Shown: positions 41,028 through 62,566 of the stretch, in pieces
Layout of the letters: every line of letters starts with the position of its first letter
Numbering within the stretch: the stretch's first letter is position 1
Source of the DNA: Porphyra umbilicalis
Lineage: Eukaryota > Rhodophyta > Bangiophyceae > Bangiales > Bangiaceae
Length of the DNA stretch: 64,000 bases
Direction: 5' to 3'
Assembly: GCA_002049455.2 (NCBI GenBank)
Contig: KV919112.1
Coordinates: 1-64,000 of the forward strand
Made by a program: the position numbers and the translations under genes
Notes under the pieces: model-generated
Database searches by the model: none
Seen by the model: only the letters and a program-made list of their open reading frames with translations
Told to the model about the DNA's origin: nothing

Positions 41028-41209
41028 GTCACAACCGGCTGGGAATCCGGTTCGTGGTCCGGAGTGCTGTCGCGGCCGCCGCCCTGGGAGCCACCACGAG
41101 CGAATCTCTCGGCCTGCGCCCTGTGCGAGACACAGCTCCGCGAGCTTCACGCGAGAAGGCACGCCGTGCAGGTACTTCGTTCAGCCTTTTGAGCTGATGA
41201 GCGACCGCC

Positions 41210-42113: not shown

Positions 42114-42249
42114 GCGCTAGGCACGACGCTCCATGGCAGCATCACGGAACTCGTGGCCAGCGGTCCGGCTCGGAGCACCAGATGCGAATCAGCCGCAGTA
42201 CGGCAATCGGCACGGAGAATGGTGAGCACGAGCTGCGCGACATGTCCTG

Positions 42250-42680
42250 ACACAAAGGCAGGTGCGGTCCGCCGTGGCCAGAAACGGACGCAAGAAGATG
42301 CGCAGGCCGCCGGGGCCAGGAACAGACGCAAAAGGAGGCACGGCCCGCCGCGGCCAGGAACGGATGCCAAGGTAGACGCGGCCCACCGTCGCCAGGAACG
42401 GACGCGAAGGGAGGCGCGGCCCGCCGTGGCCAGGAACAGAAGCAAGAAGAGTCGTGGGCTGCCGGCGCCCGAAACGAACACAAAGGCAGGCACGGCCTGC
42501 CGTGGCCCAGAATGGACGCAGAAAGAGGCGCAGCCCGACGTGGCCAGGAACAGACCCAAAAACAGGCGCGGGCCTCCGTGGCCATAAATGGATGCAAAGG
42601 GAGGCGCGTCCCGCCCTTGCCCAGAACGAACGCAAAGGGAGGCACGGCCCGTCGTAGCCACAAACGGACGCAAAAGAAGG
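42250..42680. repeat. 38-bp minisatellite, about 11 units
   Basis: Tandem units of 38 bp of the form AACGGACGCAAAGGGAGGC followed by GCGGCCCGCCGTGGCCAGG, diverged at several positions. The array ends within about 6 bp of the left inverted arm and is absent at the matching right end, so it is not part of the arm. 38 is not a multiple of three, so all frames give similar Arg/Ala-rich peptides; none is taken as a gene. Confidence 0.85.
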
Positions 42681-42685
42681 GGCAG

Positions 42686-45600
42686 CCACAGAGGAGCCTA
42701 TCCAATTCACTGGCACGCCCGGTGCACCGGCCTCTAAGCGCTGCATCGACGGCCTCTACGCCCTGGGATCGCACTTTGGCACGGCCCATTCGGTGCCAGT
42801 GTGATCATGCCAGAACGACGGCCAATCAGCCGCCAGAAATACGCTTCATTGCGGCTTATCTGGGGGGGGTGTTATCGGCCGCCCTGGGTCACATTTCATA
42901 CAGAAATAGTCACCTTCTGGCGTCCCACACCCCACAATTTCAGGGGCGTCTTTTTGTGGCCCGCGCAGGTCGCTCGGCCCGCGCATATTGGACCACTTGT
43001 TGCGAACTTTGCAAGTCCGGCAGCCCATAGAGCACCGCACGTTCGGTAACCCCACTCTTGTCCTCAAATCGCGTGTGGCACCGGCACGCCTTCCTGTCCA
43101 CCCGCTCGGGCGCCAACGCTTAAATCAGTGCAAGGATCTGCTTTACATGGATCTTCATTCAGGCTGCCAATCCGCCACATCGGCGGCGCCAGCGAGATTG
43201 CCCATCGCTGTCACGCTGCTCGCTGCCCTCCACGGAGCACACGCCAGCACACAGCGGCGTCCCACAATCGCGCGCGCGCGGGCACGCTCGTCCCCGGTCG
43301 CGCCGCCGCCGTCCCCGGCCGCGCCGCCCCCACCCCCGGCCGCGTGCCCCCACCCCCGGCCGCGGGCCCCGACCCCTGGCCGCGTCACCCCCACCCCCGG
43401 CCGCGTCGCCCCTATCCCTGGCGGTGCACCCCCATGCCCGGCCGGGCCGCCCCCATCCCTGGCCTCGCCCCCGCCCTGGCCGCCTCTGGCGCCCCCGCCG
43501 CCCCCGCCCCCGCCGCCCCCACCCCCACCCTCACCCCCACCCCCCACCACCACCCCCCGCCGACGCCCCTTGCCGGCCGCGGACGCGGTCGCCCGCCGCA
43601 GCCGCCGCGGCCGCCCCTCGAGGCCGCCGCGGCCGCCTGCCGCTGCCGCCGCGGCCGCCGCCGCTGCCACCGCCTCCACTCCCGCCGCCGCCCCCGGTCC
43701 GCTGCCCCCGGTCCCCGCTTCCGCCCCCTGCTCCAGCCGTCTTCGCCGCCGCCGCCGCCTTCGTGATTGCCGCGGCCGTGGCGTGGCCGCCGCTGGCCGC
43801 GGCTCCTTCCCGTGGCGAGCCTATGCCGCGACTGCCGCGCCCGTACCTCCACTGCTGTGGGTGACTCCATGGCGACGCCCAACCACGATGGGCAGCGTAG
43901 GAGTGGTTTGCGCTGTTCCTTCATCGAGGACGCTCCCGACTACTTTGAACGCGCGGAGGATGCCTACGAGCCGATGGGCGGGTCGCTCTCGGGCATTTTT
44001 GAGACGGCGCGGGACGCGTGGGTGACTGCGGTGGAGGGGGGGGAGATGACAAGGCAAGATTGGGACGGCGACTCGGATGCGGCGGAGAACGATGCGCACG
44101 GCTACGACACGGCCGACATGCAGGAGGCGATGAACGGCGACACAAGCACAAGATCCAGAACCCGCCCGCCAGCCCACCTATCGGCCGTGCCGGATCGCGT
44201 CCGCGCCTTCGCCGGCGGAGGGTTAATCTCTCCAAGTACTCCAGCGAGAGCACCAGTGCGGACAACCACCCGCGCCGGCAGCCAGCTGTGAGCGCGACGC
44301 CGCTGACCGTCGAGGAGCTGCACGCCGACTTTGCGGCCGAGCTTCGCGTTGCGTTCATGATCACGACGCGCATGGCCAACGTCAACGATCGACCAAGCGT
44401 CGAACCCCAGTGCGTAAGCGGCGCTCGTGTGCTCGTCTTCGTGGAGCTTTTTGACCCTGTGTGCGTGTGGTCTGCGTCGGTGCGTGGCTTACTGGTCACG
44501 TACTGCTCGTGTGGCGGTGTCCTAGGCAGTGGGCGGCGATCCTTTACTGGTGAAAAGATCGAGCACGTCAACGTGCAGGTGGCGCGAAGAAAGTCGTCAA
44601 CCTGTCGTCACGCCAGTGCGCTGCAGATGGCCTACAGCGGGATAGCGGCGGAGCACGAGATAGAGAGCCTCGATGAGCTGATCGAGGCCTTCCCAGCCCT
44701 GGCGGGCGACGGAGAGGACCTGCAGGCAGACGTCCACGCGGAAACGGCGGTGCACTTGGCCCTCCTTGCGGGGAAGAAGGCCAATGTCCCCATCCTCGCC
44801 GTGTCTTACGAAGGCATCTGGAGCCCCGCAATCGTGAGGCGCCAAGGCAACAAGCACAAGCTGGTCACCTGCTTCCTTCTCTCGTGCGCGAGCCAACCTT
44901 GGGGCTGCATCCACGCACAAGCGGTGAACGAGTACAACCGATTGGAGGCGGCGGCATCGTCGGCCGCCGCCGCCGAGTTGCAAGAAGCGCTCGAGTTTGG
45001 TCCGTCCGACTACCTCGACGACGGCGACGAGGAGCAAAACGACGAGGGCGACGACCAGGCGGGGGGCGAGCCGGGCGGTCCCGCTCGACCTGTCAACGTA
45101 GCCCCGCCGGCGCCGCTGCCGCTTCCAGTGCGGCGCTCGCGGAACATGTTTCCCTGCCCTGTCGAGGTGCAGAGCTGCAATCAGAACTCCGACTTCATCG
45201 ACTCCTGCGTGCAGGCGGGCGAGCCCAAGACGATGCACGACACCCACGCCGAGCCCATTTGCCTGCGGTGCAACATGGTGCGCGACGAGTCGACGAGGGT
45301 GGAGCCAGAGGAGACAATGCTGTACACAGTTCGTGGTTGGGCCAAGATCCACATTGGCACGTGGTACTGCAGCACGTGTAAGCTCTCGGTGGTGTATGAC
45401 GGGGCGCTCAATGGGCTCTTCGTGGAAACACGCGACACCGTGTATGCGCGCTTTTTTCTCGACGCAATGTTGGAGCTGTGTGTCATCGCCCGCAGCACGA
45501 TGGCGGCTGCGAGCGAGTACTTGGCGAGCTTTCTGGGCAACACCGCTACGTACGGAAAGTGTGAGCCCGTCCATGCAAGACAGCTGCTCTCCAACGCATG

Positions 45601-46486
45601 CGGGGAGTTCTCGCACACGCTCATCATCCCTGACGCCGCCTTCCGGTGCCACTACTGCGGTGCCGAGGAGCGAACGGGAGGGCGCTTTCGTTGTGTGATC
45701 TGCGATGGGCAAGTCCTTTCAGTTCTACAACAGCACGTGGTGAGCATGCTGCGGCCAGGAATGATTTCCCCGCGGGTGGACTTCTCCCTGATCTTTGCAT
45801 GTGCGCTTCGCAGCGCAAAGATGCTGCGGCTTGTGCGCAACCACGTGCGCACACCAATCACGGACGACACGGCGCTCACGATGGCAAGGGCGTCGGCCTG
45901 GAGCGTCTTTGCAGCCGCGCGGCTGGCTGTTCCCCCCACAGGGGGGCGTGACGTCATCGCGGCCCGCACGCCGACCGAGAAGACAGCGGCGCTGCTGTGG
46001 TCGCTTTCCATCCTGTTCAGCAGTTTTTATGAGGTGGTTGGCAGCGGGGAGTGGGAGCAGGCGCCGGTGGTACCAAAAGAGCCGGCGGGGGGCGCAGATG
46101 ATGACGTGTTCGCCGCAAATGAGCACGCCAGTGACGGTGATGACCTTGCTGGCGATGCCACGAGCTCCGCAGAGTCCAGGTTGACCTCGTGGCAGCTAGC
46201 GGCTCGCCGGACGGGAGGACTGCAGCGGTGAACGGCCCCGCTGCGCAGATGACGGACGACATTGAACGCCTGTCGCTCGCGAGATCTACCGACGCCGAGG
46301 AGGCTGCCGATGCCGAGGAGGCCGCCGACCCCGAGGCTTCCATCGACGACGCGGAGTCCACCGACCCCGAGGCGTCCACTGACGACGAGGAGGCCACCGA
46401 CGCCAAGGAGTCCACCGACGCCAAGGAGTCCACCGACGCCAAGGCGTCCACCGACGATGAGGAGGCTACCGATTATGAGGAGCCTG
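42686..46486 (+). repeat. Left inverted arm
   Basis: About 3.8 kb. The outer 1.1 kb includes a GC-rich, Pro/Ala-coding-like low-complexity stretch (43260-43760) without a convincing gene. Then comes the SWIM/CxC gene and the first part of the acidic-linker gene. Similarity to the right arm ends inside the acidic repeat, just after the TDYEEP codons. Confidence 0.9.
44018..46231 (+). CDS. SWIM and CxC zinc-binding protein, probably the N-terminal part of a KDZ transposase system
   Basis: 737-codon open frame. A SWIM-like zinc motif CxC...CxH lies at residues 163-198 (TYCSCGG ... STCRHASAL), with a second Cys/His cluster at 285-299 (CFLLSCASQPWGCIH). After an acidic linker come two clusters resembling KDZ-associated CxC5 and CxC6: CLRC (415-418) with WYCSTCKLSVVYDG (449-462), and FRCHYCGAEE (542-550) with RCVICDGQVLS. 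Such clusters bind zinc next to KDZ catalytic domains. The true start may be upstream, at 43869 in another frame (MATPNHDGQRR, acidic, conserved in both arms), joined by splicing; a GGTTAAT donor-like site lies near 44220. The C-terminus overlaps the next gene by 43 bp. Confidence 0.55.
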   Translation: MGDCGGGGGDDKARLGRRLGCGGERCARLRHGRHAGGDERRHKHKIQNPPASPPIGRAGSRPRLRRRRVNLSKYSSESTSADNHPRRQPAVSATPLTVEELHADFAAELRVAFMITTRMANVNDRPSVEPQCVSGARVLVFVELFDPVCVWSASVRGLLVTYCSCGGVLGSGRRSFTGEKIEHVNVQVARRKSSTCRHASALQMAYSGIAAEHEIESLDELIEAFPALAGDGEDLQADVHAETAVHLALLAGKKANVPILAVSYEGIWSPAIVRRQGNKHKLVTCFLLSCASQPWGCIHAQAVNEYNRLEAAASSAAAAELQEALEFGPSDYLDDGDEEQNDEGDDQAGGEPGGPARPVNVAPPAPLPLPVRRSRNMFPCPVEVQSCNQNSDFIDSCVQAGEPKTMHDTHAEPICLRCNMVRDESTRVEPEETMLYTVRGWAKIHIGTWYCSTCKLSVVYDGALNGLFVETRDTVYARFFLDAMLELCVIARSTMAAASEYLASFLGNTATYGKCEPVHARQLLSNACGEFSHTLIIPDAAFRCHYCGAEERTGGRFRCVICDGQVLSVLQQHVVSMLRPGMISPRVDFSLIFACALRSAKMLRLVRNHVRTPITDDTALTMARASAWSVFAAARLAVPPTGGRDVIAARTPTEKTAALLWSLSILFSSFYEVVGSGEWEQAPVVPKEPAGGADDDVFAANEHASDGDDLAGDATSSAESRLTSWQLAARRTGGLQR

Positions 46487-47178
46487 CAGAAGCCGAGAAT
46501 CAACCCCTGCTTCCCAACCTTCCGAAGGTTCCGGTCGCTCCGGCCGACTCGTCCGCAGCAACGACGTCGACAAGGCGGAGCACGCGGAGGGGACGAAGCG
46601 TGTCGTGTTTCCGGCACTCCACAACTGGCGAGCCCGTCAAGGAGGAGATTGAGGCGTCGCCGGCCTCCGCATCGCCGTCTGCGGATGACGCCTCTCCTGC
46701 TCGTACGAGGAAGCGGGCCCAGTCGCACCGACGCGAGGCAGCCGTCGAAGCACGTGCGCCCTCCGTCGCGGCAGACGCGTCTGCCGTTATGGTCGACACG
46801 CCGCCTGCTTTCCAGCGACCGCGCCGCTCCAGTGCGAGTTTGGTGCGGCGCGCCAACGATGAGGCCGTCGCAGTGGTCGAGGAGCCACAGTCGGCGGTCG
46901 CGGCGCTGCCCGATAATGCCTCATGTCAGCTGCTCGGGCCGAGCGGCAAGATGGTTGCCATGGCAAGGCTCGTCAAGAGCGCCACCCGCTTCCACGGCGT
47001 ACCAGTGGATCCTGATTGTGTCGTTGTTTGCGTGAGTACCGTGAAGGACATGCTTCTTCGATATCCTTCGCAGAGTCGCTATCGTTTGCCCGGTCACCGA
47101 CGCAAAGTGTGGCACATGGGGGACCTTGCTGGTGTGGAAGTTGTTTGGTCCCTTTTCTCTTTGAAGGCTAGCTTGTAG
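46189..47178 (+). CDS. Acidic-repeat protein with DUF8039-like C-terminal domain
   Basis: 329 codons. Residues 1-95 repeat those of the Ulp1 gene in the other arm: MTDDIERLSLARS, then 5-residue units of the STDAK type, very acidic. Beyond the arm boundary the sequence is new: a Ser/Ala/Arg-rich linker, then about 80 residues with CQLLGPSGKMVAMARLV, HGVPVDPDCVVVCVSTV and WHMGDLAGVEVVWSL. This pattern resembles the DUF8039 domain of plant transposon proteins that also carry Ulp1 domains; I compare from memory, so the match is tentative. No protease motif is present. The overlap with the preceding gene suggests splicing or translational coupling. Confidence 0.45.
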   Translation: MAASGSPDGRTAAVNGPAAQMTDDIERLSLARSTDAEEAADAEEAADPEASIDDAESTDPEASTDDEEATDAKESTDAKESTDAKASTDDEEATDYEEPAEAENQPLLPNLPKVPVAPADSSAATTSTRRSTRRGRSVSCFRHSTTGEPVKEEIEASPASASPSADDASPARTRKRAQSHRREAAVEARAPSVAADASAVMVDTPPAFQRPRRSSASLVRRANDEAVAVVEEPQSAVAALPDNASCQLLGPSGKMVAMARLVKSATRFHGVPVDPDCVVVCVSTVKDMLLRYPSQSRYRLPGHRRKVWHMGDLAGVEVVWSLFSLKASL

Positions 47179-47869
47179 AAGTGTCGCGCACAAACATGGT
47201 TCCTTTTCTTTGGATAAAGTAGCGCGGATACACAGGATTTGTGTTTTCGTTCATGCGGGATCGTCAGTGCGTGAGGCGCTTGCACGTGGAGCTTCTTTTC
47301 TTCTTGCTCTTTGACTTTGCCGTTCTGGACAGGCGCTCGACCCCGCTTCAAATCTGCGGAGATTTCTTCTCATCACAGACGAGACGCCCAGATTTGGTCG
47401 TACTGTAAACTAGCAAAGTTTTAGAAGGCTTGGAATGGCTGCAACATACACAAGTACCGGATTCTCATTTGAAGTTGTGCGTAGACAAAGTGCAGGACTA
47501 TATTGATATTTTAGGTTGCCGAAGTGCTCGCGCGATCTCGTATCTGTCACAGCTGTCGGCAGGCGGGCGCAGCGCCCCCCCATCCAGAAGCAGCTGGGCA
47601 TGGTGGCGGACAGGCGCTGGATTCTGTCGCGAAGCAGAGCCTGCCTATTTTGTTTGATGCGTGTGGCAGAGGGCCCCGGCCTCCTCCCGCGTCCGTCATC
47701 GCTGATGACGCCACCGGACGCTCCCCGCCTCTCTGGCGCCACAATTGGGCCTGACGGACGCCCCAGTCACTGTCGCGCCGCCGCCACAGGGGTGGCAGCA
47801 CCCGCCGCCGCAGCTGACGCCATGCCCGCATCATTTGAGGGTCTACCCGCGCGTCTGTAAGAGGGTTCG
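47179..47869. other. No gene supported
   Basis: Lower-GC spacer after the DUF8039-like gene, likely its 3' untranslated region. Nothing recognised. Confidence 0.35.
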
Positions 47870-48409
47870 TTGCAGGGGGCGCCCTCTTTCGCGTCGGATC
47901 CGGGGGCGGCCACGAGCGCGGCGACGGCGGAGGCGGCCGCGAGGGCATCTACGGAGGGTGCGGCAACAATCGCGTCGACGGCGGGGGCAGCCAAAATCGC
48001 GTCGACGGCGGGGGCTGCCGCAAGCGCGTCGACGGCTAGGCCGGCCACCAGCCCGTCGACGGCGGGGGAGACCACCAGTTCGTCGGCTGAGATGGGATCC
48101 GCGGATACCTATGTGGCTGGGGGGATCGAAGGTTCGACGGAGCTGAGCACCGGTAGCGTTGACTACAATCAGCGGTACGACGCTATTTGCAACGCGTCGC
48201 AGGACTTCGGCGATGTGTGTTCGCGTCCCCCAGTGCCGGCTTGGCGGCGGTATTACCGATGGGCGGAGCAGGGCGAGTGGTTAACGGCGGTTGTGGGTTC
48301 GACGGAGGACTGGGCGACGCCCGCGTCGCCCGTGACGACTGTTAGCGGCCAGGCGACTGTGACGACGGGCGGGATGAGCGTGTCCGCTATCGCGGTGCGT
48401 GAGTCCTGA
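47870..48409 (+). CDS. Hypothetical Ala/Ser/Thr-repeat protein
   Basis: 179 codons. Residues 15-75 are imperfect repeats of about 9 residues, ASTAGAA(K/A)I, encoded by GCGTCGACGGCGGGGGC units of 27-30 bp. The second half is not repetitive and has YRWAEQGEWLTAVVG and a Thr/Val-rich end. No family recognised. It could be a cargo gene of the large element, or an open frame that survives only because the repeat is a multiple of three. Confidence 0.3.
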   Translation: MQGAPSFASDPGAATSAATAEAAARASTEGAATIASTAGAAKIASTAGAAASASTARPATSPSTAGETTSSSAEMGSADTYVAGGIEGSTELSTGSVDYNQRYDAICNASQDFGDVCSRPPVPAWRRYYRWAEQGEWLTAVVGSTEDWATPASPVTTVSGQATVTTGGMSVSAIAVRES

Positions 48410-51094
48410 TCACGGCAGAGGGTGACTGGGATGACGCCGCCGGTGTGGTCGTTCGACGGTGGGTCGGTACGCGGGCGGGCGCGGCGCCTTGGGTGTGGGA
48501 GGAGGCGTCGCTGAGGGCAGTTGCGGTCGCCACGCTCGTGTGTGACTGTGTGATTTATTTCCGGGGGTACGGGGGGGGTAGAATGGTGGTCGGGAGGCGA
48601 CGTGCTGCTTAATCGCCCCGTAGGTCTGTCACTGCAGTGACTGGACGCGGGGCGCCGCTGATGCCAACAGTATACTCTTCGTTGCGACAACAAGCTTCTG
48701 GGCCTGGCAGAGGTCAGAAATCGGATGCGCCCAGCGCACTTTCTCTGGAGCTTTGTCGACCTTGTCGCAAAGGGGACAGCAGGGTGCTTCGTAAAGTGTT
48801 TTTACAATGAAGATAGAGCGCCTTGGTCCGCTCAAGAAAAGAACAATGCCCTCACCACGCGTCTGGAAGAATGTACTTTGATAAAAGCACCAGCAGCGTC
48901 TCTGTCCCAGGTGACCACCAGCCCCACTATTCCCGCCTCTACCGCACTCGGCCGCGCGGCTCCCGCCACCCGAGGCGAAGCCGCCACTACTCGCCGACCC
49001 ATTGCGGCCGCCCCGTCCGCCCCGCTCTTGTCGCGGACGCCGCCGTCCGCCGTGCGCTTGTGTTCGCCGCCGCCGCCCACCCCGCGCTTGCCCGAGCGGC
49101 TGTCGCCACCCGAGGCCGAGCCGGCACAACCCGCCGACCCACCGCGGCCGCCGTCGCCCATTTCACGGTGCCCCCCCTCCTCGACAAGGCTGGTACTCGG
49201 GGGCCAACGACCCTTTTTGAGAGTACATATCCGTTCGATTGCCTGCTGGCGGCTCGCCGCAGAATGGAAGACCCACAGAGGTCCGTCGAAAACAATGGTG
49301 CCGCTCGCCTAGCCGCTGGCACCCGGTGAACCTCGAGACGGCCTCTCGCTGCCGCGAAGAGCGGTGCGACCGCCTATGTCTGCGGATGGACGAAGATGAG
49401 GTCCCCAGGGATTCGGCGGAATTTCCGAACACCGGGATCGGACCCCGGGACGTGCTCGTGCTGCATCATCCGGAGTGGCGCCCCCTCAGTTGTCCACCCA
49501 AAGAGTACTCCGCCGACTGGCGGCGCCACGTCGCCCAGTCGGTTAGAGGGGCACGCGCGCGACCGCTTCGACGCCGGGAAAGGACACCAGAGCGGTCGGG
49601 GTCATTTGAGGCGAGGCTGGGGGCACCATGTGGGGATTCCGCCATTGCTGATGGCCGGGGTGGAGGGGGGGGGAACGATTTCCGTGCTGAGGGGACACAA
49701 GGAAAGATAGCGAGGCGGACGCGTCCGTCAAAAGTCACAACACGCATCATGCTGGGTCGTTCGCGAGCCCCGCTCGGATGGAAACAGGGGTCCTGCAGTT
49801 ACGAAGGGGGCAGGCGGCATGGCTCCGAGGGCTCCTGAAAGCAGCTCCTGAAAAATTCCTCTGACCCGCGATGATTGGTGATCTTGAGACGCCTCTTGTC
49901 CGGCTCGTATCCAAACAGAACCAACCACGATGCCTGACCGCATCGCTGTGTGGCAGCCAAGCAACTGACCTGACAGGGTGTCTCGCGAAGCTGGGCCAGT
50001 GGAGGGGTTGACAGTGCCTCGAAAACCGAAGCCATTGGCGCTGTGGGCGCCAGCCATTCACGGAAGCTGCCCTTCGGGGCCCCCCCCCACACTGTGCACG
50101 ATGAACCTCCTGGCCCATTGACCCTTCCTTGACTCCCTCTCGACAGACTAAGGCGTTGTCGCTGTGGCCGGCACTGCTGCCTGTGATTCGCCGTTCGGGA
50201 GGCCTCGGGCAATCTGCCCGATCGAGCTCTTGTCAGCACATCGACCCCTCGCTGTCAGCGCTGCTGGGAGCCTGCAGTAGCCTGCAAGATCTCTCTCCTG
50301 GGGGTCGCCGTGGCACTCGACAGTTTCATCCTGCGCCATGCCCCAGTGTTCTCTGGCGGCAGTGCAGCACAGACTTTGTCCCGCTGCCGCCGTCACCGCC
50401 ACCGTCACCGAGCAGGCCACCGCAGCCCATTGTCGCAAGGATATTACAGTCTCAGTCGTGTGGAGATGAGTCTCCGCGACCAACCTTCGTCGAGGTCGCT
50501 CCATGGGCAACATAGTGCACACAGACGTGCTGGAAATGTTTCTAAGAATGTGCCCATGACGCTGCGGTCGAGATGTTGAGTACGGAGATGAGACACGAAC
50601 AACCTGCAGAGACACCGCGCACGGGTCTTGAACTCGACAGTCGTCGAGAAGAAATAGAACATGTGTTGTCGTCGCCTACCCGGGGCTAGTCCCCGGGAGG
50701 CTCGCATACGTACCCCTCTGGTGGCGTCCGGCCTCCGTCCGCTGCCGCACCCCCGCCCGGCCAACTTGCACACGCAGCACGCAGTCGCCCGTTCCCAGGA
50801 TGAAGGGTGAGCCTCAAGACTGGCCCAGTCGCCCGCCGTAGCTGCACCCCGTAAGTGGCTGCTCGCCCGCCGCCATCTCGACAGGAACGCACTTATGCTG
50901 GCCGGCAGGATGCCCACGGCTTGCGTACCGTCCCGCGCTGTCCAGGTCGGTGTGACCCCCATGGGTCTGGGATGAAGCCACCACTTGCCCCCCGCCAGTC
51001 CGTGCCGGCAACTGCCCGTCCCAGTGGGTGCCGCCGCCGCACAGCTCGGCCAGCCTCGTCAGCTGTAGAACGGGTGCGACTGCAGGAGCATGTC
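48410..51094. other. Inside the large element, no gene supported
   Basis: Short frames only. Around 48960-49160 a GC-rich sequence is repeated once with a spacing of about 143 bp (CGCCACCCGAGGC.GAGCC core). At 49320-49560 a plus-strand stretch (DSAEFPNTGIGPRDVLVLHH) looks somewhat protein-like but leads nowhere. Confidence 0.3.
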
Positions 51095-51450
51095 TCAGCC
51101 GTCGGTGCCATTGCCGTGCTCCCAGCAGAACCGCACCTTGACGATGCGAGCTTCATTCCGCGTGCTCTCCACCAGACGCGCAGAGCCCTCCCTGGACTTG
51201 CACAGAATGGATTCTGCCGGCTCGCCGACAGGCACCATGCCGTGCAGAAACGCGCGCACCAGCGAGCGACGCGTCCAGCAACCATCACCAACACGATCAA
51301 AGTACTCAAACAACATGCAGCGCCAATGCGCCAGCCGAGGCCACTTGTAAAGCGCCTCCGCCAACTTGACAAGGGCGAGGGTGGTCGCACGTGAAATGTA
51401 GATGGACGGCTCAAACGTCTGCCAACCCCCGGGAACGACCGCAGTTGACG
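51095..51450 (-). CDS. Protein-coding-like segment, unknown
   Basis: One minus-strand frame is open from above 51450 to 51095. From about 51420 on it has a natural composition: ATTLALVKLAEALYKWPRL, HWRCMLFEYFDRVGDG, WTRRSLVRAFLHGMVPVG and ILCKSREGSARLVESTRNEA, ending FCWEHGNGTDG. A different frame just upstream (ESYVRTRIFSLVAAAVN) also looks coding, so an exon junction or a frameshift may lie near 51430. I do not recognise the family. It is on the same strand as the transposase-like gene and downstream of it. Confidence 0.35.
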
Positions 51451-52699
51451 GCGGCTGCGACGAGGGAGAAGATGCGCGTCCGCACGTAGGACTCTATGTT
51501 GCCGGGGGTGTGGATGACTTTTGGGAGTCTAACGCCGCAACGCAGGCAGCCGCAGGAAATTGTCCCTGCATGCCAGTGGCCGGGGGTGCTCCCAATGTGG
51601 GGGGTGGTGGCAGATCCGCTGCGTCCGTGGCCTCCAGCCTTCTGGAAAAGAAGGACCGGGCGGAGTTAAAGACAGCCGCCGCGGCGGCCTGGACAGAGTG
51701 GAGGTGGTCCATGCCCGGTGCGGGAAAGACAGCCGAGAAGACGTGGTGGGCCAGCCCGGATTGAAGGGAAGCGCAGGAAGAGCAGCGGGGGGTGGCCGTC
51801 TTGATGATTGAGGGTGGCCGCCAGTGAGACGGGGAAAGGACGACAGGGATCCGGACTGGAGGCCCGGAAGCAATAGCGGATCGTGGCGACCTGGTAGAGC
51901 GGGGAGCAGAGATGGTGGTCGAAGGGTGACGGCCAGGCCAGTGGGGGGAAGGGACGGTTGGCAGCAACGACACGGTGGTCGAGACGAGTGTGGAGTGTAA
52001 AGCGGCGTATGGAGTGACGGTCAACTCACGTGACGCTTCTCCTGCACAGACGGGGGGCGGCAGAGCAAAGCGTCACATGTACGCACCCTCCACGGTCTGG
52101 CGGGAGCGTCAGCGCCGCTTTAGGCAAGGAGAGAAAGTGTAGGGCAACGAAGCATGCTCTTCTCGTCCAGCATCCTTGTAGCCTGCCCGTGCGCAAGATG
52201 GAGAGAGCCCAAGATGAATGGGACCTTGATTACTGACGCTAACTTAGGGCGTGGGGCTGCAACTTTTGTAGGTCCTTGTTGCGTCACATCACCTAGCCTC
52301 CTCGCATTCTCTCATAAGAACTGTGTGGTGAGTCTATCCGGCGCCTGCCTGGTGCGGGAGCTTGGACACATGTTGATGGCTGTCTGCACCCTTCTGCAGG
52401 CGCGTCTCACAGCTGTTTGAGGATGACAGTCAGACCTCTGTGGCCGATGGGCGGCCGTTCCCGGAATGGAACAAAGGGCGCGAGAGGTGGCGCGCAGGCA
52501 GTCTCAAAGCTTCGCTGGCTGGTGTTGGTAGCCCTAATGGAGTATGTGACGCTCTCGAAGGCGTTGGAGTACAGTTGTCCGTCGAGATCAGCCTGGCCAG
52601 AGAGAACGCAATGACGGGACCCAACGTTGTTGTGCTGAATACTGGCCTATGGGAGTTGGTAACCTTCGTGGCCTGTGCATCCGGTAAGATAACTTGTCG

Positions 52700-53325
52700 G
52701 TGCACAGGCTTCCCATAGTTCAAGTGCGTATCCAAAATGATACCACTTCCATGCAGAGGCTGCCCGCACTTCAATCACACCAGCTTTTCAACGCTGACAG
52801 GTGAAGGCTAAAACGGCCAAACGGATGACAAAAGAGCTGCGAATAGCAACAGCAGATCGCTGTGTGTCCGCCAAGATGGGCGTCGGCGGATACATACGGG
52901 GACAGTGTCCGCACTTCGCTCCATGGAGTATCAACCCAGTGGACGATCGACGCGGCACCGGAGGCAATGCTACCAATGTAGATGGCGTGTGTATCCAATG
53001 TGACACCCTGTCCATGCAGAGGCTTCCCATAGTTCAAGCGTATATCCAAGATGATACCATGTCCACGCAGAGGCTGCCATCACTTCAATCATACCAGCGT
53101 GTCCACAGGGCCACCATAAGGCTACAACTGCCAAAGGGATGACAAAATCGTTAGAAACGGCGACAGCAGATCACTGTGTGTCCGCCACGATGGGCGGTGG
53201 CGGATACGTAGGGGGAGTGTGGCCGGTCTTCGCCTCATTGAGTACCAGCCCAGTGGACGATGGACTCCTCCGTACCGGAGGCAGTGCCACCGATGTAGGC
53301 AGTCTCCAGATAAGAATTATGGACG
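52700..53325. repeat. Tandem duplication with a 314-bp period, two units
   Basis: GGCTTCCCATAGTTCAAG occurs at 52707 and 53021, and AGCAGATC.CTGTGTGTCCGCC at 52851 and 53165, both 314 bp apart. The two units are about 80 percent alike by eye. Smaller repeats of about 45 bp (ATGCAGAGGCT cores) occur within them. No coding function seen. Confidence 0.7.
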
Positions 53326-53446
53326 AGACGTCGTTTCCAGGGATGACTTTCAAATGAGATCTCGATCGAGATAGCAACTTCCTCATCAGAAGCACCCGTT
53401 CCCATGTGCACTGTCACCCCTCGTTCAAATTGCAGGATCTGCGTGG

Positions 53447-53863
53447 TCACCCTCTTTTTCGCCTGAGCTGTCCTCGCTCCAGCCCGCCGAAACACGACAC
53501 CCACGCGATTGACCGGATGTCCTGCCGCTCGTTGCGCTGTGCACGAGTGCCCAGAGGCATCAATGGCAAAGCCCGCATTCGGTGCGCGACCTCCGACAGC
53601 GGGGATGGGTAAGCCGCGACCGGCCCCATTTGCATGAGACGTGCAGCAAGGCCTCCTGTCGGGACACCGAGGTGGAAGGCCGCCATGTCGGGGGTTCGGC
53701 CGGGGGGCAGGCGGATGATGGAGTGCTCTTGCAAGAAGGAGATGACACGCTCCTTTGTGACTGTCTTGACAGGGGGAGGGTCCGCCGTGCTTGCGGTCGC
53801 TGTTGATATCTGGCCCTCGGGAGGAGACAGGGGGCTGGGAGCGTCTTTTGCGTCGCGCCACAT
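53447..53863 (-). other. Coding-like segment, unknown
   Basis: A minus-strand frame of 138 codons. It has a plausible helical middle (TKERVISFLQEHSIIRLPP, MAAFHLGVPTGGLAARLMQ) between low-complexity ends. It lies downstream of the transposase-like domain on the same strand and might be a 3' exon. No family recognised. Confidence 0.25.
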
Positions 53864-54395
53864 GAGCTCGGGGGCCTTAAGGGCGTGGGAATGGCATCCT
53901 CAGCGCGCTGCATGGGGCCAATGGCTTCTTTCTTCTCAACCGGGTGGTTGGAAAGGGGGTTGCTCATCCCGACGACCTGCTAGGCAGCGGCGAAGGGCCC
54001 GCTCGTCCGCGGCCGCGGCGTTTGGGGCGGTTGAGAGGGGTTGAACTTGTTCGGCGAGGGGGATGTCCGACCTGGTGCGTCGGGCGGCCGCGAGAGCGTG
54101 TCGTTATCAATGGCACGCACTGTCCCGGCAGTGATGCTGCGGAGAACCAATGCGGCGGGGTTGGTGGCCTCCGCAGTTGCAGCGGCGGACGGTTTCTGTA
54201 CCGCCGAGCCCCGAGATGACCCTTTTGCCAAAGCTCCTTTGGTGCACGTGCTCTTCGTGTTGGCTCAAAGCCGCTCGAGGCTCACCGGCCTCAGCTTCTT
54301 TTGCAAACTCTTTGAAGAAGGAAAGAATAAAGAAGCGCTTGTCCCTTCTCTGTTATATATTAAGCAAGCGCGCAGCTCCACCCAACTCCTCCACG

Positions 54396-55166
54396 TCACA
54401 CCTTCTGCATCAACCCAGGCGCCGGCCCAAGTGGCAGTGACTCTCGGCAGGTACACCCGGGCACCTCGCAGTGGGTAACGATGGTCTTGTTGTAGTAGGC
54501 CTCCACCGGGAAGTGCAGGATCTCCTTCGACTTCTTCTTGATTCCTGCCGCCAGCACCTGCCCGCCGCTGAGCACAGCGTCCCGGCGCTGTGACACCCGC
54601 ACGTTGTTATGCGCCGCAATGTAACGGGAGCGCACGATGAAGCGCTTGTGGGTCATGCATGAAAGGGAGTTCTTCGACTTCTTCTTTATGCTGTGTTGCC
54701 GCTTTGCACCAGATGTGTCATCCCCCCGCGACAGCTCTGGGTATTCGTCCGCGTCGAGGGTGCGAGAGCACTTGTGGCTGCAGCGATGGAAGCGGTCGAT
54801 GAACCAGGCCGTGACCACCTCGTGGAGAAGCCAGGGCACGCGGCGGATGGCATTGCGCTGCGCCTGACACGCGGTTTCAAAGTAGACAACCTTGAGGGAG
54901 ACCTTGAACTGCTGCGCCAACGCCGCAACGACGTGATCCGGGCTCTCCGTCTCCCGCAGGAGCTCAAAACCAATGATGTAGCCGCAGGGGCCCATGAAGG
55001 TCATGACGCCGGGTGCTCGCAAAACGTCGGGCGGGTAGAAGTGGCGACAATCATCCTTCTCCCTTGACGGCTTGGGCTTTTTCTTCTTGTCTTTGGTCTT
55101 CCGCCGCTTGATTGCCGCCTTCTTGCGGTCTTGCTCGCTCGTCTTGTCGTCCATGTAGGAACGCAC
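54396..55166 (-). CDS. KDZ-like transposase, C-terminal catalytic region
   Basis: 256 codons. After a Lys-rich start come DDCRHFYPP and MTFMGPCGYIIGFELLRETES (start of the RNase H-like core after its first strand). VSLKVVYFETACQAQRN follows (the conserved YD.AC strand), then WFIDRFHRCSHKCSR (D.FH...HKC box) and SGAKRQHSIKKKSKNSLSCM...AAHNN (the NT..E..N helix region). This order is that of KDZ transposases. Residues usually acidic in the second and last boxes are not in their standard form (FETAC and GAKRQ), so activity is doubtful. The frame is continuous with the 341-aa ORF upstream except for one stop. Confidence 0.5.
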   Translation of the reverse strand: MRSYMDDKTSEQDRKKAAIKRRKTKDKKKKPKPSREKDDCRHFYPPDVLRAPGVMTFMGPCGYIIGFELLRETESPDHVVAALAQQFKVSLKVVYFETACQAQRNAIRRVPWLLHEVVTAWFIDRFHRCSHKCSRTLDADEYPELSRGDDTSGAKRQHSIKKKSKNSLSCMTHKRFIVRSRYIAAHNNVRVSQRRDAVLSGGQVLAAGIKKKSKEILHFPVEAYYNKTIVTHCEVPGCTCRESLPLGPAPGLMQKV

Positions 55167-55172
55167 CGCCGC

Positions 55173-56198
55173 TCACCCCGGCCACACCTGTCCCGTCCGC
55201 TCTTCGTCCAGCTGCGTCACCATCCGGCCGACCGACTTGTCAACCAACGCCATGTCGGGCAGCGGCGGCGAAACCCCTCGGGCCATCAGCCAGTCCTGGT
55301 ACTTCTCGGGGGATGTCTCTTGCCATTGGTCGCGGTACGCCTTGGCGTCGTCCCCGGCCGCCGCCTCCCACTTGGACAGGGCCACCTCTATTGAGTTGAT
55401 GGAGAACAGGAGCAGCTCACGGATGGCTCGCGACAAGTCCCGCGACCGGTCCATGGTGAACCGCATCAGCATCAGGAACTCCCAAATAAACACCACCTGC
55501 TGGATGCAGTCGATATTGTAGATCCACGTTGAGCTCGGTGCGCCTTTGATGAGGTTGTGCGCCAACTCCGCAACGCAGACCAGGGCGCACCCAGCAAAAA
55601 TGTTGAAAGCTGGCTTTGCCAGCAAGGCCGACAACAATAGACGCACCTTGCGCCACCGATCCTTATCCACGCGCTCGTTCGCCCTCGGGGGAAACGCGTC
55701 CACGATGGCGACGCACACCAGCGCCGCGCGAATGGAAGCAGCGGCAGCTGTGTCGCCGTCAGCCTCAGAGTCGGAAGAAGAAGAGCTCTCCTCGTCGCTC
55801 GAGGGGTTGGCCGGCTGCGGGGCGTCCGCTGCCGGGGGGGCGGGTGCCCCGGAAAGAGGGACCGCTCGGAGCGGGTTGGCGTCCGTGTCAACCTCACCAG
55901 CTGGCGGCGGTGTACCAGCGGTAGGAGGAAGGGAGGTAGGCTCGGGAGGCGGCGTGCCAGAAGACAAATGGAGGCGGGCTCTGGTGCTTGCAACAGCAGG
56001 GGAACGGGTAGAGAGCAGCAAGGGAGGTTTCCTCGCAAGTGGCGCCTGCGGAGACAAGGAGGAGAGCGACGCGACTTCTCCTGGCAGAAGAGCGGGCACG
56101 GTCGCACCTACCGCAGAAGGAACGGCGAGCGGCGACAGTCGTCCGGGGGGCACTTCATCCTCAGCGGTAGGCGCCGCCTCTGACAAATGGCTCACCAT
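55173..56198 (-). CDS. Hypothetical 341-aa protein upstream of the transposase-like domain
   Basis: N-terminal 150 residues: Pro/Ser/Ala-rich, ending in a Ser/Glu-rich acidic patch (SSDEESSSSSDSEADGD). C-terminal half: globular and helical with a hydrophobic stretch (AFNIFAGCALVCVAELAHNL) and FIWEFLMLMRFTMDRSRD. The ORF ends seven bases before the transposase-like frame, in the same frame. The stop sits in CAGGTGTGG...TGAGC, where GTGTGG could be a splice donor. It may thus be the 5' part of the same gene. No family recognised. Confidence 0.4.
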   Translation of the reverse strand: MVSHLSEAAPTAEDEVPPGRLSPLAVPSAVGATVPALLPGEVASLSSLSPQAPLARKPPLLLSTRSPAVASTRARLHLSSGTPPPEPTSLPPTAGTPPPAGEVDTDANPLRAVPLSGAPAPPAADAPQPANPSSDEESSSSSDSEADGDTAAAASIRAALVCVAIVDAFPPRANERVDKDRWRKVRLLLSALLAKPAFNIFAGCALVCVAELAHNLIKGAPSSTWIYNIDCIQQVVFIWEFLMLMRFTMDRSRDLSRAIRELLLFSINSIEVALSKWEAAAGDDAKAYRDQWQETSPEKYQDWLMARGVSPPLPDMALVDKSVGRMVTQLDEERTGQVWPG

Positions 56199-57451
56199 GA
56201 GGGGACAAGCGGGGGATCGCTACAGGCAAGGGGGCGGGGATATTGGGCCGTTGGAAGGAAGGACGTTAGTACGTGCTGGTTTCCAGCGGCTTGAGGTGCA
56301 GGCGCGAGGTAGCAGCGCGTTGAAGCCGCAGCTGCAGTGACGGCCGCGGGTAGCCCGTTGTGAGAGCTGCACAAGGCCGCCATGGGGGTCGTCCGGGCAA
56401 AAGACGGCAGGTGGCTGGTAGCAGGAGGGGTGGTCGGATGGCCGGTCGCCTGGCGGATACCGCGGCTGTAGGGGGTGCGGGGGCATGCTTCGAAGCGCCC
56501 TGAAGCGGCAGCTGCAATGGCAGCCGCGGGCGTCCAGATGAGAGAGCTTTAAGCGGCCGCCATGTAGGCCGCCGGGGCGCAAGACGGCCGGTGTCCAGGC
56601 AGCAGGAAGGGTGGTCGGAGGACCAGGCAGCAGGAGGGGTGGTCGGATGGCCGGTCGCACGACGGACATCGAGGCTGTCTGCATCCCACAGCACGGGTGG
56701 ACGGTGACCGGAAGCATCAGAGGCGACTGGCAGTCGGTCGCACGGTAGATTGGCCGGCGGCCGCAGGTGCCATCGGCTGTTGGGCAGTCAGTGTCCTCCA
56801 CAGAGGGTTGGGGAACGGGGGCTCATTGGAAGGGGGGAATGCGACAGATACGGGGTCGCCAGTTCAACCACCCGTTAGCACCGCAAAGCCCATGCAGGAC
56901 CGCCCAGATGCACACATAGGAGGATTGCGCGCGCGGACAAACCGCCGGGCAACATGGCGCAACCGCCACCGACGTCGGGCTGACAGATGAGGACGTCTGT
57001 GGCGCTCTTCCGGCCGGGGTCTGCCAGGGGTGAAGCGAGGTAGACGTGATGGGAAGAGGGGATTTATCAGCTCTGCAAATGCGATGGACGCTGATGACGA
57101 GAGGAGTTGTAGTGTGAGATTGTCGAGAAGGGACCTTTTCAATTGATAGCAGTATGAGACTGTTGTAGTTGATGGAGGAAATCTCTCCCAAACATAGGCA
57201 CAGCCAGTGTGATGAAACAATCACAGCGCCTTCATCCAAGTGTTGTTGCAGCGATAAGACAGGTGACAGCACCCGCCTACCTCATTCGGTGAATACACTA
57301 GTGTGGCAAGCGAGACCGGAGACGAGCAGGCCAGCATCGGTGGCGCAAGGGATGATGCTGTGAGGCGACCAGCATAGATTCAATAACATGGCAAGGGCAC
57401 GGGTGGGAACAGAGCGCAAGAGAGCCGAAAAATAAAAAAATCGGTTTTACA
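56199..57451. repeat. Spacer with a diverged tandem repeat of about 180 bp
   Basis: GAAGC.GCAGCTGCA.TG.CGCCGCGGG-type sequence near 56323 recurs near 56502, followed in both by CAGCAGGA.GGGTGGTCGGA blocks; the last block is repeated once more. The rest (56700-57450) holds nothing recognised and may include the 3' region of the Ulp1 gene. Confidence 0.5.
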
Positions 57452-58855
57452 TCACAAGAGAGTGTTTGCCAGGAGCTCGGCTGCCATGCGGCGCCTATAG
57501 TAGTCCATGCTGCCCGTCATGCTGGCTTGTGGGAGGCCCCTGGACAAATAGTCCATGGTCCTGACCGTAAACACCCCGCAGTCCGTACCGCCCTCTTGCA
57601 ACCGACACGGCACCCGCGACCAGGCCCACTTGCCGCGCTTGTGGCCGTGTACCGTCGAGTCATCCTTGCCCCACCGCACCAGGCACGTAGAGATCCAAGT
57701 GGGCACCAAGCCCAGAGAGTCATACGTGTCGACGTGACGCCGCTGTGGGTAGTTGACCCCCAATACCCAGTGGATCTTGCCCAGGTTGACGGGTACAAAC
57801 ACAGAGTCATAGGACTTGAAGTCCAAGTGCCGCGACCAGCGGTGCACCGCCTCATAGCTGTACGCCAACTCATTGTTCCGGATCATCGTGGAGTTTATTA
57901 ACGTGGTGAAGAAGTGGAAGCGCGTCGGCCGCTTCTCTGCCGCCGCCCAAGTCTGCTCCCGTTGCGAAAGCAAATGGACGTACGAGTTGATGGCCTTGTC
58001 GCGAAGCAGCACCGCCGGCGCCGTCCGACGTAGTTTCCACAGCCGAAGTTGAATGTTGCTGGTGGTAACTAGCGGCACCTCATGCCGCGGAGCGCGCTCG
58101 GCGGACCCGCGGTACGGCTTTATCGGCGCCGTGGCCAAAATAGCTCTTGGCGTCAGCGACGAGCACGGGTCGGCGGGGTCGCACACCATGGCCTTTTCGG
58201 CCCCTTCTGCCGACTCAACCGCCAGGTAGCAGAGCGGCGTCTTCGAAAAGTCGTTCGAGCGCGGCCCGGCGGTGGCTCTCGTTTCATGCTCGCCGTATGC
58301 AGCATGGATGATGGGAGCTGGTGCGACCCTGGCGACGGTGGGCCCATACAGCGGCATTTGCTCGACGCCGAGAGCTCCAGCCGGGAGGATCATGGTACAA
58401 CTCTTCACCTTGAGACGCCCGGTGGCGTGGCCACGTAGGGCGGCGTGGGCAAGTTGGGCGGCGTCGCCACGACGGGCGGCGTCGGTAGCTTCGTCGGCGT
58501 CTGCAGGCTCCCCATAATCGGTAGCCTCCTCATCGTCGGTGGACGCCTTGGCGTCGGTGGACTCCTTGGCGTCGGTGGACTCTTTGGCGTCGGTGGACTC
58601 GTTGGCGTCGGTGGACTCCCCGTCGTAGGTGCCCTCCTTGGCATCGGTGGACTCCTCGTCGTCAGTGGACGCCTCGGGGTCGGTGGACTCCGCGTCGTCG
58701 ATGGAAGCCTCGAGGTCGGCGGCCTCCTCGGCATCGGCAGCCTCCTCGGCGTCGGTAGATCTCGCGAGCGACAGGCGTTCAATGTCGTCCGTCATCTGCG
58801 CAGCGGGGCCGTTCACCGCTGCAGTCCTCCCGTCCGACGAGCTGCTAGCTGCCAC
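57452..58855 (-). CDS. Acidic-repeat protein with Ulp1-type (C48) cysteine protease domain
   Basis: 467 codons. Residues 1-125 are shared with the left-arm protein: DDIERLSLARS, then STDAK/STDDE units, more of them than on the left. After a linker the C48 domain fills about 270-467. FVPVNLGKIHWVLGVN gives the catalytic His362, TYDSLG the Asp379, and RLQEGGTDCGVFTVRTM the oxyanion Gln420 and nucleophile Cys426. All catalytic residues are present, so it looks functional. C48 enzymes cut SUMO-like tails or polyproteins; transposon-borne ones occur in several DNA transposon groups. The start overlaps the preceding gene's end by 43 bp. Confidence 0.75.
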   Translation of the reverse strand: MAASSSSDGRTAAVNGPAAQMTDDIERLSLARSTDAEEAADAEEAADLEASIDDAESTDPEASTDDEESTDAKEGTYDGESTDANESTDAKESTDAKESTDAKASTDDEEATDYGEPADADEATDAARRGDAAQLAHAALRGHATGRLKVKSCTMILPAGALGVEQMPLYGPTVARVAPAPIIHAAYGEHETRATAGPRSNDFSKTPLCYLAVESAEGAEKAMVCDPADPCSSLTPRAILATAPIKPYRGSAERAPRHEVPLVTTSNIQLRLWKLRRTAPAVLLRDKAINSYVHLLSQREQTWAAAEKRPTRFHFFTTLINSTMIRNNELAYSYEAVHRWSRHLDFKSYDSVFVPVNLGKIHWVLGVNYPQRRHVDTYDSLGLVPTWISTCLVRWGKDDSTVHGHKRGKWAWSRVPCRLQEGGTDCGVFTVRTMDYLSRGLPQASMTGSMDYYRRRMAAELLANTLL

Positions 58856-61800
58856 GAGGTCAACCTGGACAATACGGAGCTTGTGGCATTGCTATCAAGG
58901 TCATCACCGTCACTGGCGTGCTCAGCTGCGGCGAACAAGTCAACAACTGCGCCCCTCGCCGGCTTCCTCGGTACCACCGGCGCCTGCTCCCACTCCCCGC
59001 TGCCAACCACCTCATTAAAACTGCTGAACAGGATGGAAGGCGACCACAGCAGCGCCGCTGTCTTCTCGGTCGGCGTGCGGGCCGCGATGACGGCACGCCC
59101 CCCTGTGGGGGGAACAGCCAGCCGCGCGGCTGCAAAGACGCTCCAGGCCGACGCCCTTGCCGTCGTGAGCGCCGTGTCGTCCGTGATTGGTGCGCGCACG
59201 TGGTTGCGCACAAGCCGCCGCATCGTTGCGCTGCGAAGCGCACATGCAAAGATCAGGGAGAAGTCCACCCGCGGGGAAATCATTCCTGGCCGCAGCATGC
59301 TCACCACGTGCTGTTGCAGAACTGAAAGGACTTGCCCATCGCTGATCACACAACGAAAGCGCCCTCCCGTTCGCTCCTCGGCACCGCAGTAGTGGCACCG
59401 GAAGGCGGCGTCAGGGATGATGAGCGTGTGCGAGAACTCCCCGCATGCGTTGGAGAGCAGCTGTCTTGCATGGACGGGCTCACACTTTCCGTACGTAGCG
59501 GTGTTGCCCAGAAAGCTCGCCAAGTACTCGCTCGCAGCCGCCATCGTGCTGCGGGCGATGACACACAGCTCCAACATTGCGTCGAGGAAGGAGCGCGCAT
59601 ACACGATGTCGCGTGTTGCCACAAAGAGCCCATTGAGCGCCCCGTCATACTCCACCGAGAGCTTACACATGCAGCAGTACCACGTGCCGATGTGAATCTT
59701 GGCCCGACCACGAATTGTGTACAGCATTGTCTCCTCTGGCTCCACCCTCGTCGACTCGTCGCGCACCATGCTGCACCGCAGGCAAATGGGCTCGGCGTGG
59801 GTGTCGTGCATCGTCTTGGGCTCGCCCGCCTGCACGCAGGAGTCGATGAAGTCGGAGTTCTGATTGCAGCGCTGCACCTCGCCAGGGCAGGGAAACATGT
59901 TCCGCGAGCGGCGCACTGGAAGCGGCAGCGGCGTCGGCGGGGTACCTCGACAGGTCGAGCGGGACCGCCCGGCTCGCCCCCCGCCTGGTCGTCGCCCTCG
60001 TCGTTTTGCTCCTTGTCGCCGTCGTCGAGGTAGTCGGACGGACCAAACTCGAGCGCTTCTTGCAACTCGGCGGCGGCGGCCGACGATGCCGCCGCCCCCA
60101 ATCGGTTGTACTCGTTCACCGCTTGTGCGTGGATGCAGCCCCAAGGTTGGTTCGCGCACGAGAGAAGGAAGCAGGTGACCAGCTTGTGCTTGTTGCCTTG
60201 GCGCCTCACGATTGCGGGGCTCCAGATGCCTTCGTAAGACACGGCGAGGATGGGGACATTGGCCTTCTTCCCCGCAAGGAGGGCCAAGTGCACCGCCGTT
60301 TCCGCGTGGACGTCTGCCTGCAGGTCCTCTCCGTCGCCCGCCAGGGCTGGGAAGGCCTCGATCAGCTCATCGAGGCTCTCTATCTCGTGCTCCGCCGCTA
60401 TCCCGCTGTAGGCCATCTGCAGCGCACTGGCGTGACGACAGGTTGACGACTTTCTTCGCGCCACCTGCACGTTGACGTGCTCGATCTTTTCACCAGTAAA
60501 GGATCGCCGCCCACTGCCTAGGACACCGCCACACGAGCAGTACGTGACCAGTAAGCCACGCACCGACGCAGACCACACGCACACAGGGTCAAAAAGCTCC
60601 ACGAAGACGAGCACACGAGCGCCGCTTACGCACTGGGGTTCGACGCTTGGTCGATCGTTGACGTTGGCCATGCGCGTCGTGATCATGAACGCAACGCGAA
60701 GCTCGGCCGCAAAGTCGGCGTGCAGCTCCTCGACGGTCAGCGGCGTCGCGCTCACAGCTGGCTGCCGGCGCGGGTGGTTGTCCGCACTGGTGCTCTCGCT
60801 GGAGTACTTGGAGAGATTAACCCTCCGCCGGCGAAGGCGCGGACGCGATCCGGCACGGCCGATAGGTGGGCTGGCGGGCGGGTTCTGGATCTTGTGCTTG
60901 TGTCGCCGTTCATCGCCTCCTGCATGTCGGCCGTGTCGTAGCCGTGCGCATCGTTCTCCGCCGCATCCGAGTCGCCGTCCCAATCTTGCCTTGTCATCTC
61001 CCCCCCCTCCACCGCAGTCACCCACGCGTCCCGCGCCGTCTCAAAAATGCCCGAGAGCGACCCGCCCATCGGCTCGTAGGCATCCTCCGCGCGTTCAAAG
61101 TAGTCGGGAGCGTCCTCGATGAAGGAACAGCGCAAACCACTCCTACGCTGCCCATCGTGGTTGGGCGTCGCCATGGAGTCACCCACAGCAGTGGAGGTAC
61201 GGGCGCGGCAGTCGCGGCATAGGCTCGCCACGGGAAGGAGCCACGGCCAGCGGCGGCCACGCCACGGCCGCGGCAATCACGAAGGCGGCGGCGGCGGCGA
61301 AGACGGCTGGAGCAGGGGGCGGAAGCGGGGACCGGGGGCAGCGGACCGGGGGCGGCGGCGGGAGTGGAGGCGGTGGCAGCGGCGGCGGCCGCGGCGGCCG
61401 CGGCAGGCGGCCGCGGCGGCCTCGAGGGGCGGCCGCGGCGGCTGCGGCGGGCGACCGCGTCCGCGGCCGGCAAGGGGCGTCGGCGGGGGGTGGTGGTGGG
61501 GGGTGAGGGTGAGGGTGGGGGTGGGGGCGGCGGGGGCGGGGGCGGCGGGGGCGCCAGAGGCGGCCAGGGCGGGGGCGAGGCCAGGGATGGGGGCGGCCCG
61601 GCCGGGCATGGGGGTGCACCGCCAGGGATAGGGGCGACGCGGCCGGGGGTGGGGGTGACGCGGCCAGGGGTCGGGGCCCGCGGCCGGGGGTGGGGGCACG
61701 CGGCCGGGGGTGGGGGCGGCGCGGCCGGGGACGGCGGCGGCGCGACCGGGGACGAGCGTGCCCGCGCGCGCGCGATTGTGGGACGCTGCTGTGTGCTGGC

Positions 61801-62356
61801 GTGTGCTCCGTGGAGGGCAGCGAGCAGCGTGACAGCGATGGGCAATCTCGCTGGCGCCGCCGATGTGGCGGATTGGCAGCCTGAATGAAGATCCATGTAA
61901 AGCAGATCCTTGCACTGATTTAAGCGTTGGCGCCCGAGCGGGTGGACAGGAAGGCGTGCCGGTGCCGCACGCGATTTGAGGACAAGAGTGGGGTTACCGA
62001 ACGTGCGGTGCTCGATGGGCTGCCGGACTTGCAAAGTTCGCAACAAGTGGTCCAATCAGCGCGGGCCGAGCGACCTGCGCGGGCCACAAAAAGACGCCCC
62101 TGAAATTGTGGGGTGTGGGACGCCAGAAGGTGACTATTTCTGTATGAAATGTGACCCAGGGCGGCCGATAACACCCCCCCAGATAAGCCGCAATGAAGCG
62201 TATTTCTGGCGGCTGATTGGCCGTCGTTCTGGCATGGTCACACTGGCACCGAATGGGCCGTGCCAAAGTGCGATCCCAGGGCGTAGAGGCCGTCGATGCA
62301 GCGCTTAGAGGCCGGTGCACCGGGCGTGCCAGTGAATTGGATAGGTTCCTTTGTGG
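58505..62356 (-). repeat. Right inverted arm
   Basis: About 3.85 kb, the reverse complement of 42686-46486. Most of it is almost identical to the left arm. Changes are concentrated at about 58.9-59.1 and 59.64-59.96 kb and in the number of acidic-repeat units. That patchiness suggests partial gene conversion. Confidence 0.9.
58813..61025 (-). pseudogene. Right-arm copy of the SWIM/CxC gene, frameshifted
   Basis: Same protein as at 44018-46231. The N-terminal half (SWIM-like clusters) is open from 61025. Near 59945 one base fewer than in the left copy puts the C-terminal half (CxC5/CxC6-like clusters, NMFPCPGEVQ to the end) in another frame, open from 60159 to 58813. Several substitutions around the second Cys pair (CCMCKLSVEYDG instead of CSTCKLSVVYDG) keep all four cysteines. 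The left copy is intact but lacks the Ulp1 domain; the right one has the Ulp1 gene next to it. The same upstream frame as on the left (MATPNHDGQ, starting near 61174) is kept. Confidence 0.6.
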
Positions 62357-62566
62357 GGGTGGGGAGGGGTTTATTGACAGCGGGGACGCCGTCCTCGTCG
62401 CCGTTTGATAAAACCAACTGTGCTTTGGACTACGATTCCCCCCTGGGCTTTGCCGTGATCCTCTTCTCCCGTTGGGGGAAGGCTGGGCTGTGGGTCGATT
62501 TCCAGGGTAGTTCTTTCGACGGACCGAGCTGATCAAGAGGTCACTTCGGCGTGACGACGAACCAAC

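Follow-up and report, generated by a model that had tools for sequence, protein, structure and literature searches.

Giant KDZ transposons have been reported from brown and green algae, and the excerpts of the published account on which we draw describe elements of up to 30.3 kb in Ectocarpus and an active 31.7-kb element in Chlamydomonas reinhardtii; the giant elements that it reports from red algae are EnSpm elements (PMC12477816). In the available portion of a second report, Kyakuja of Laccaria is characterized by a 7-bp target-site duplication (TSD), 5'-CA..TG-3' termini and the lack of terminal inverted repeats (TIRs), and 8-bp TSDs are given for Zisupton and a Dileera element (PMC12730594). 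For Galileo of Drosophila, the part of the source at hand proposes recombination and conversion between copies (PMC3573991). Here we describe a KDZ-like block at positions 42686–62356 of a 64,000-nucleotide stretch of the red alga Porphyra umbilicalis. This stretch, referred to below as the window, comprises bases 1–64000 of contig C352 (76,298 bp) in an 83.8-Mb assembly of 665 contigs. We judge, with a probability of roughly 80%, that the block belongs to a giant red-algal KDZ family as a non-autonomous, rearranged copy, to which an additional right-end fragment has been joined.

A preliminary description, made from the window alone, had noted two nearly identical 3.8-kb arms in opposite orientation with genes facing inward from them, and both observations are borne out. 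The left arm (42686–46497, forward strand) and the right arm (approximately 58494–62356, reverse strand) are 98.0% identical, with 73 mismatches over 3,771 bases in a single alignment. Three inverted-repeat segments make up the arms, of 2,242 nucleotides (I1, 99% identity), 1,396 nucleotides (I2, 95%) and 183 nucleotides (I3, 98%), and a coding repeat that differs in length by 54 bp makes the inner boundary of the right arm indistinct. The outer parts of the arms differ at 11 of 2,199 sites, with no differences at all across 43886–44885. The inner parts are less alike, with 57 differences, distributed patchily, in about 1,612 sites. Either arm diverges by 5.6–12.4%, depending on the stretch, from the copy of the element on contig C32.

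The right arm is the normal right end of the family, and its terminal repeat is placed at 62229–62356 (reverse strand) by analogy with the best full copy, on contig C56. The left arm is an inverted duplicate of this end and begins at the terminus itself (CCACAGAGGA). Next comes a novel 12-bp junction (46498–46509) that has no clear homology to the arm and links it to an element-internal point. From there the element body (46510–62356, forward strand) is colinear with C56 (190678–212369) and with C32 (328857–337500, which has an internal deletion). The window copy lacks the left end of the element, together with the normal left part that occupies 3.7 kb in C56, and carries a second, inverted copy of the right 3.8 kb attached at internal position 46510.

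The normal architecture is seen in C56, a copy of about 25.4 kb with CA..TG-like ends and imperfect TIRs of approximately 125 bp, whose alignment scores 69, whereas none of 500 shuffles scores above 32. Between its short imperfect TIRs, a normal copy has a left end with a 1,240-residue frame, a KDZ transposase and, close to the right end, a SWIM-CxC4-Ulp1 gene. The left frame, open from stop to stop at C56:187620–191342, is rich in proline and alanine and has no Pfam match at E-values up to 0.01. Both C56 and C32 extend leftward past the point corresponding to 46510 into sequence that is common to the two and absent from the window. The left end itself is seen at C56:186968 and C10:274943, both of which start GGCACAGGAACTTCT; in the stretches read for C158, C257, C565 and C152 it was not found. 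Two other candidates for the left end were rejected, namely 46510, beyond which the sequence of C32 and C56 continues, and C32:325407, where the copy meets a separate high-copy repeat and which was set aside for C56:186968–186970. C56 also contains a nested Copia insertion of about 5.8 kb (197950–203738) with an open gag-pol frame of 1,492 residues. A 283-nucleotide tandem duplication (78% identical) lies within the element at 52669–53265 of the window and is seen in the copies on C56 and C229 as well.

A comparison of flanks among other copies, which the preliminary description had proposed as a way of finding a fixed-length target duplication, gave a mixed outcome. C56 is bordered by a direct repeat, which is 9 bp long (GCGTTTCGG) if the element starts with CACAGG and 7 bp long (GCGTTTC) if it starts with GGCACAGG, the GG being common to C56 and C10. 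The stretches read for C158, C338, C257, C565 and C32 contain no match on the left to the opening seven or more bases of the right flank, the left ends of these five copies being truncated or outside the sequence read.

To survey the family we searched the genome with 44600–47500 of the window, for which all 33 candidates were scored, and with the outer kilobase of the arm, for which 40 of 740 candidates were scored because a G+C-rich repeat in that kilobase is common. Matches to the arm gene of at least 585 bases occur on nine contigs (C352, C32, C56, C158, C106, C338, C257, C565 and C35), a count that sets aside shorter, diverged matches elsewhere, none longer than 457 bases. Among the nine, only C352 carries the gene twice in opposite orientation; on C106 the match is split, with both pieces on the same strand. 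The right terminus was found at eight of the loci read, namely the window (in both arms), C32, C56, C158, C106, C338, C257 and C565, the last on a short contig whose end is 2.2 kb away; it was not seen for C35. All eight share the outer end ...TTTGTG(G) with slight variation. Every one of the seven loci outside the window has a single arm and none has two, an outcome that the preliminary description had named as telling against its reading of the block as one element with gene-bearing terminal inverted arms. That reading fails for the family, in which the normal left end is different and the TIRs are short. Because single arms are the rule at the other right termini, the gene-bearing mirror arms seem to have arisen by accident in a single copy and not to reflect the design of the family. 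As a separate observation, the copies on C257 (from 41253) and C565 (from 2214) appear by eye, from their translations, to be two closely alike members of a diverged subfamily; their likeness perhaps reflects a recent duplication or a piece repeated in the assembly.

The transposase is encoded in the body by an exon at 54396–56198 (reverse strand), which in the window copy is broken by a stop codon and by changes of two conserved residues. The stop is a TGA at 55173–55175; YFETACQ (54864–54884) has E in place of the first conserved D, and GAKRQHS (54690–54710) has K in place of the conserved E at the third position. These acidic residues are present in the family, where the D of YFDTAC is found in 32 of 33 sequences, the D of DRFH in all 33 and the E of GAERQ in 31. 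From this conservation and from the KDZ alignment we infer that the three residues are catalytic. An AlphaFold2 model of the transposase is of low confidence, with a mean predicted local distance difference test score of 55 and values below 50 at residues 209–367.

The assignment of this protein to KDZ, suggested in the preliminary description, is upheld by comparison of family profiles, though the Pfam KDZ model (PF18758) matches neither the window protein nor that of C158. At E-values up to 1 the model matches 4 of 33 family members, the best with an E-value of 1.1e-5 and 25.7 bits (cut-off 26.6), and a precomputed KDZ label is present on one of 50 relatives. Elsewhere in the genome there are 34 other PF18758 matches, 19 of them at or above the Pfam cut-off (two only when neighbours are included). 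Profiles of the window family score 101–111 bits (E-values 5e-33 to 3e-30) on the three best of these 34 loci, all three above the Pfam cut-off, in a test set of 903 sequences that included 900 shuffled ones, and the shuffles reach at most 3.9 bits. In hhalign the probability is 99.4%, across 143 columns. The strong scores of the family profiles on Pfam-KDZ loci of the same genome support membership of the 54–56 kb protein family in KDZ, as judged from sequence. None of the 34 PF18758 loci overlaps a locus of the window family, and since all lie away from it the P. umbilicalis genome seems to hold several KDZ lineages.

The SWIM/CxC proteins and the Ulp1 protease gene had been listed separately. 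The parts look like one gene, because the relative P0054 joins CxC4 (E-value 2e-5) and Peptidase_C48 (2.1e-27) within a single protein of 1,217 residues. In C56, the CxC4 match likewise sits within an open frame of 1,286 residues, and a C48 label is found on 12 further relatives among 27 matches. CxC4 is weak in the window (E-values 4.7e-5 and 0.0019, under the Pfam cut-off) and also under the cut-off in C158; the C56 match exceeds the cut-off (27.8 bits), and that of C338 just reaches it (26.6 bits, or 26.9 with neighbours; cut-off 26.9). SWIM is a motif recognized by eye and was not reported by the Pfam search at E-values up to 1. In the window, the body copy of the gene extends over 57452–61025 (reverse strand), with the C48 domain in the open reading frame (ORF) at 57452–58855, and is frameshifted inside the arm. 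The left arm ends ahead of the protease part and truncates the second copy. What is left is an open ORF of 737 residues (44018–46231, forward strand) that has the SWIM-like motif and CxC4 and corresponds to the N-terminal part of the gene without the protease domain. A chimeric ORF of 329 residues (46189–47178, forward strand) spans the junction; in it, the linker of the SWIM-CxC4-Ulp1 gene runs on in frame into the C-terminus of the left gene.

The sequences flanking the block belong to an unrelated repeat family, here called X. The left flank (41200–42584) is 74–84% identical to sequences on six contigs, its main matches being on C84, C182, C467, C141, C95 and C336, and it is closed by a minisatellite of 38-bp period (42260–42677, identified by Tandem Repeats Finder). 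Beyond the block, repeat X continues at 62591–63356. Because both flanks match the same six contigs, the KDZ block is placed by these alignments inside a single repeat-X copy, which it interrupts. In C467, which was read directly, about 885 bp that are absent from the window lie between the X minisatellite and the point matching 62591; match coordinates alone indicate a similar-sized gap in C84, C141, C182 and C336. Abutting the right end of the element is an LTR-like (long terminal repeat-like) high-copy repeat of 229 bp (62362–62590), with eight same-strand pairs 7.3–9.0 kb apart, copies mostly 95–96% identical and no obvious TG..CA ends. The preliminary description had seen no clean target duplication, and we agree. 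At the outer ends (42685/62356) there is no abutting direct repeat of at least 3 bp under any of four choices of the ends, the best partial agreement being 5 of 7 or 5 of 8 positions.

Taken with the missing left end and the second right end, these features most likely mark a foldback-like derivative that arose by aberrant transposition or break repair. By the likeliest route, transposase would have cut a sister copy, or one closely related, exactly at its right terminus, and the right-end fragment so released would have been broken at its interior end. During or after cleavage the fragment would have been end-joined to the broken element, and repeat-X DNA nearby would have been lost. The near-identity of the outer 2.2 kb was probably maintained afterwards by gene conversion between the arms.

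Several points weigh against this account. The direct repeat is given by C56 only and was found for none of the five other copies tested, the left end was seen in no copies other than C56 and C10, and the route of rearrangement is one that we infer. In addition, at 46136–46285 the left arm differs from C32 at 9 of 150 positions and from the right arm likewise at 9 of 150, and at 46436–46497 it differs from C32 at 1 of 62 positions and from the right arm at 3 of 62. The closeness of these inner stretches to C32, equal to or greater than that to the right arm, favours either conversion from other copies or the main rival explanation, in which one repeat-X copy received two separate KDZ insertions, oppositely oriented, which a deletion from the interior of one to that of the other then fused. 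This is a special case of a rearranged derivative, alike in product and different in route, and unmatched flanks, lost repeat-X DNA and a single internal junction are all compatible with it. It requires, however, two insertions within about 1 kb of one repeat copy by a family for which only eight loci were found, and the outer arms are about 0.5% apart whereas either differs from C32 by 7–10% in that region. The 57 inner differences favour neither route: C32 and C56 both side with the left arm at 27 of them and with the right arm at 25. We consider the double insertion possible but tentative.

A false joining of copies of the family during assembly is improbable. The assembly is repeat-rich, but differences at 73 of 3,771 arm sites mean that neither arm is simply a copied read, and the two flanks belong to opposite sides of one repeat X, although X is itself repetitive. 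Very unlikely is a KDZ subfamily with long gene-bearing TIRs that transposes as a unit, as the complete right termini at both outer ends and the position of the block within one repeat-X copy might suggest, given the absence of a second arm at all seven other loci found, the lack of a direct repeat at the outer ends (at best five positions agree over 7–9 bp), the missing target DNA (about 885 bp of repeat X) and the gene truncated by the left arm.

We return to the block as a rearranged copy with a joined right-end fragment. There is only a slight chance that this two-right-ended derivative has become a mobile unit that uses transposase from intact relatives; in that case, foldback forms with long TIRs that carry a SWIM-CxC4 gene could evolve from KDZ elements. 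Foldback-like forms invite recombination, and they can mislead annotation. The window copy offers a base-level view of the end product of one copy's conversion to such a form. More broadly, the analysis delimits well a giant KDZ family of a red alga, with its termini, its TIRs, a candidate target duplication of 7–9 bp and a SWIM-CxC4-Ulp1 companion gene. A literature search of partial coverage turned up no KDZ report from red algae.

In the excerpts cited, the giant KDZ elements of other algae resemble the window family in their KDZ transposase, large size, extra genes, nested insertions and often pseudogenized transposase (PMC12477816). The window family differs in being red-algal, in having a divergent transposase of its own and in carrying a SWIM-CxC4-Ulp1 gene, and the window copy differs in its two right ends. 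As in the available description of Kyakuja (PMC12730594), the termini are CA..TG-like and one copy has a 7–9-bp direct repeat; in contrast to Kyakuja, there are imperfect TIRs of about 125 bp, and the length of the TSD is not fixed. With regard to the arms, the '2 recombinant TIR' and chimeric copies of Galileo, as the accessible text presents them (PMC3573991), likewise recruit internal sequence into longer inverted ends, and both systems show chimeric copies with non-matching flanks. However, Galileo belongs to the P superfamily, its longest TIRs are about 1.26 kb and it is spacer that was recruited, whereas the window presents a single case in KDZ, with 3.8-kb arms that include most of a coding gene. 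In the maize Ac/fAc composite insertions produced by alternative transposition, according to the portion of the report consulted (PMC4270019), transposon ends and duplicated segments are similarly joined, partly by end joining; those cases have 8-bp TSDs and known progenitors, while no TSD is seen for the window copy. The extended TIRs of Galileo and the composite insertions of maize are the nearest precedents for the two-right-ended copy in P. umbilicalis.

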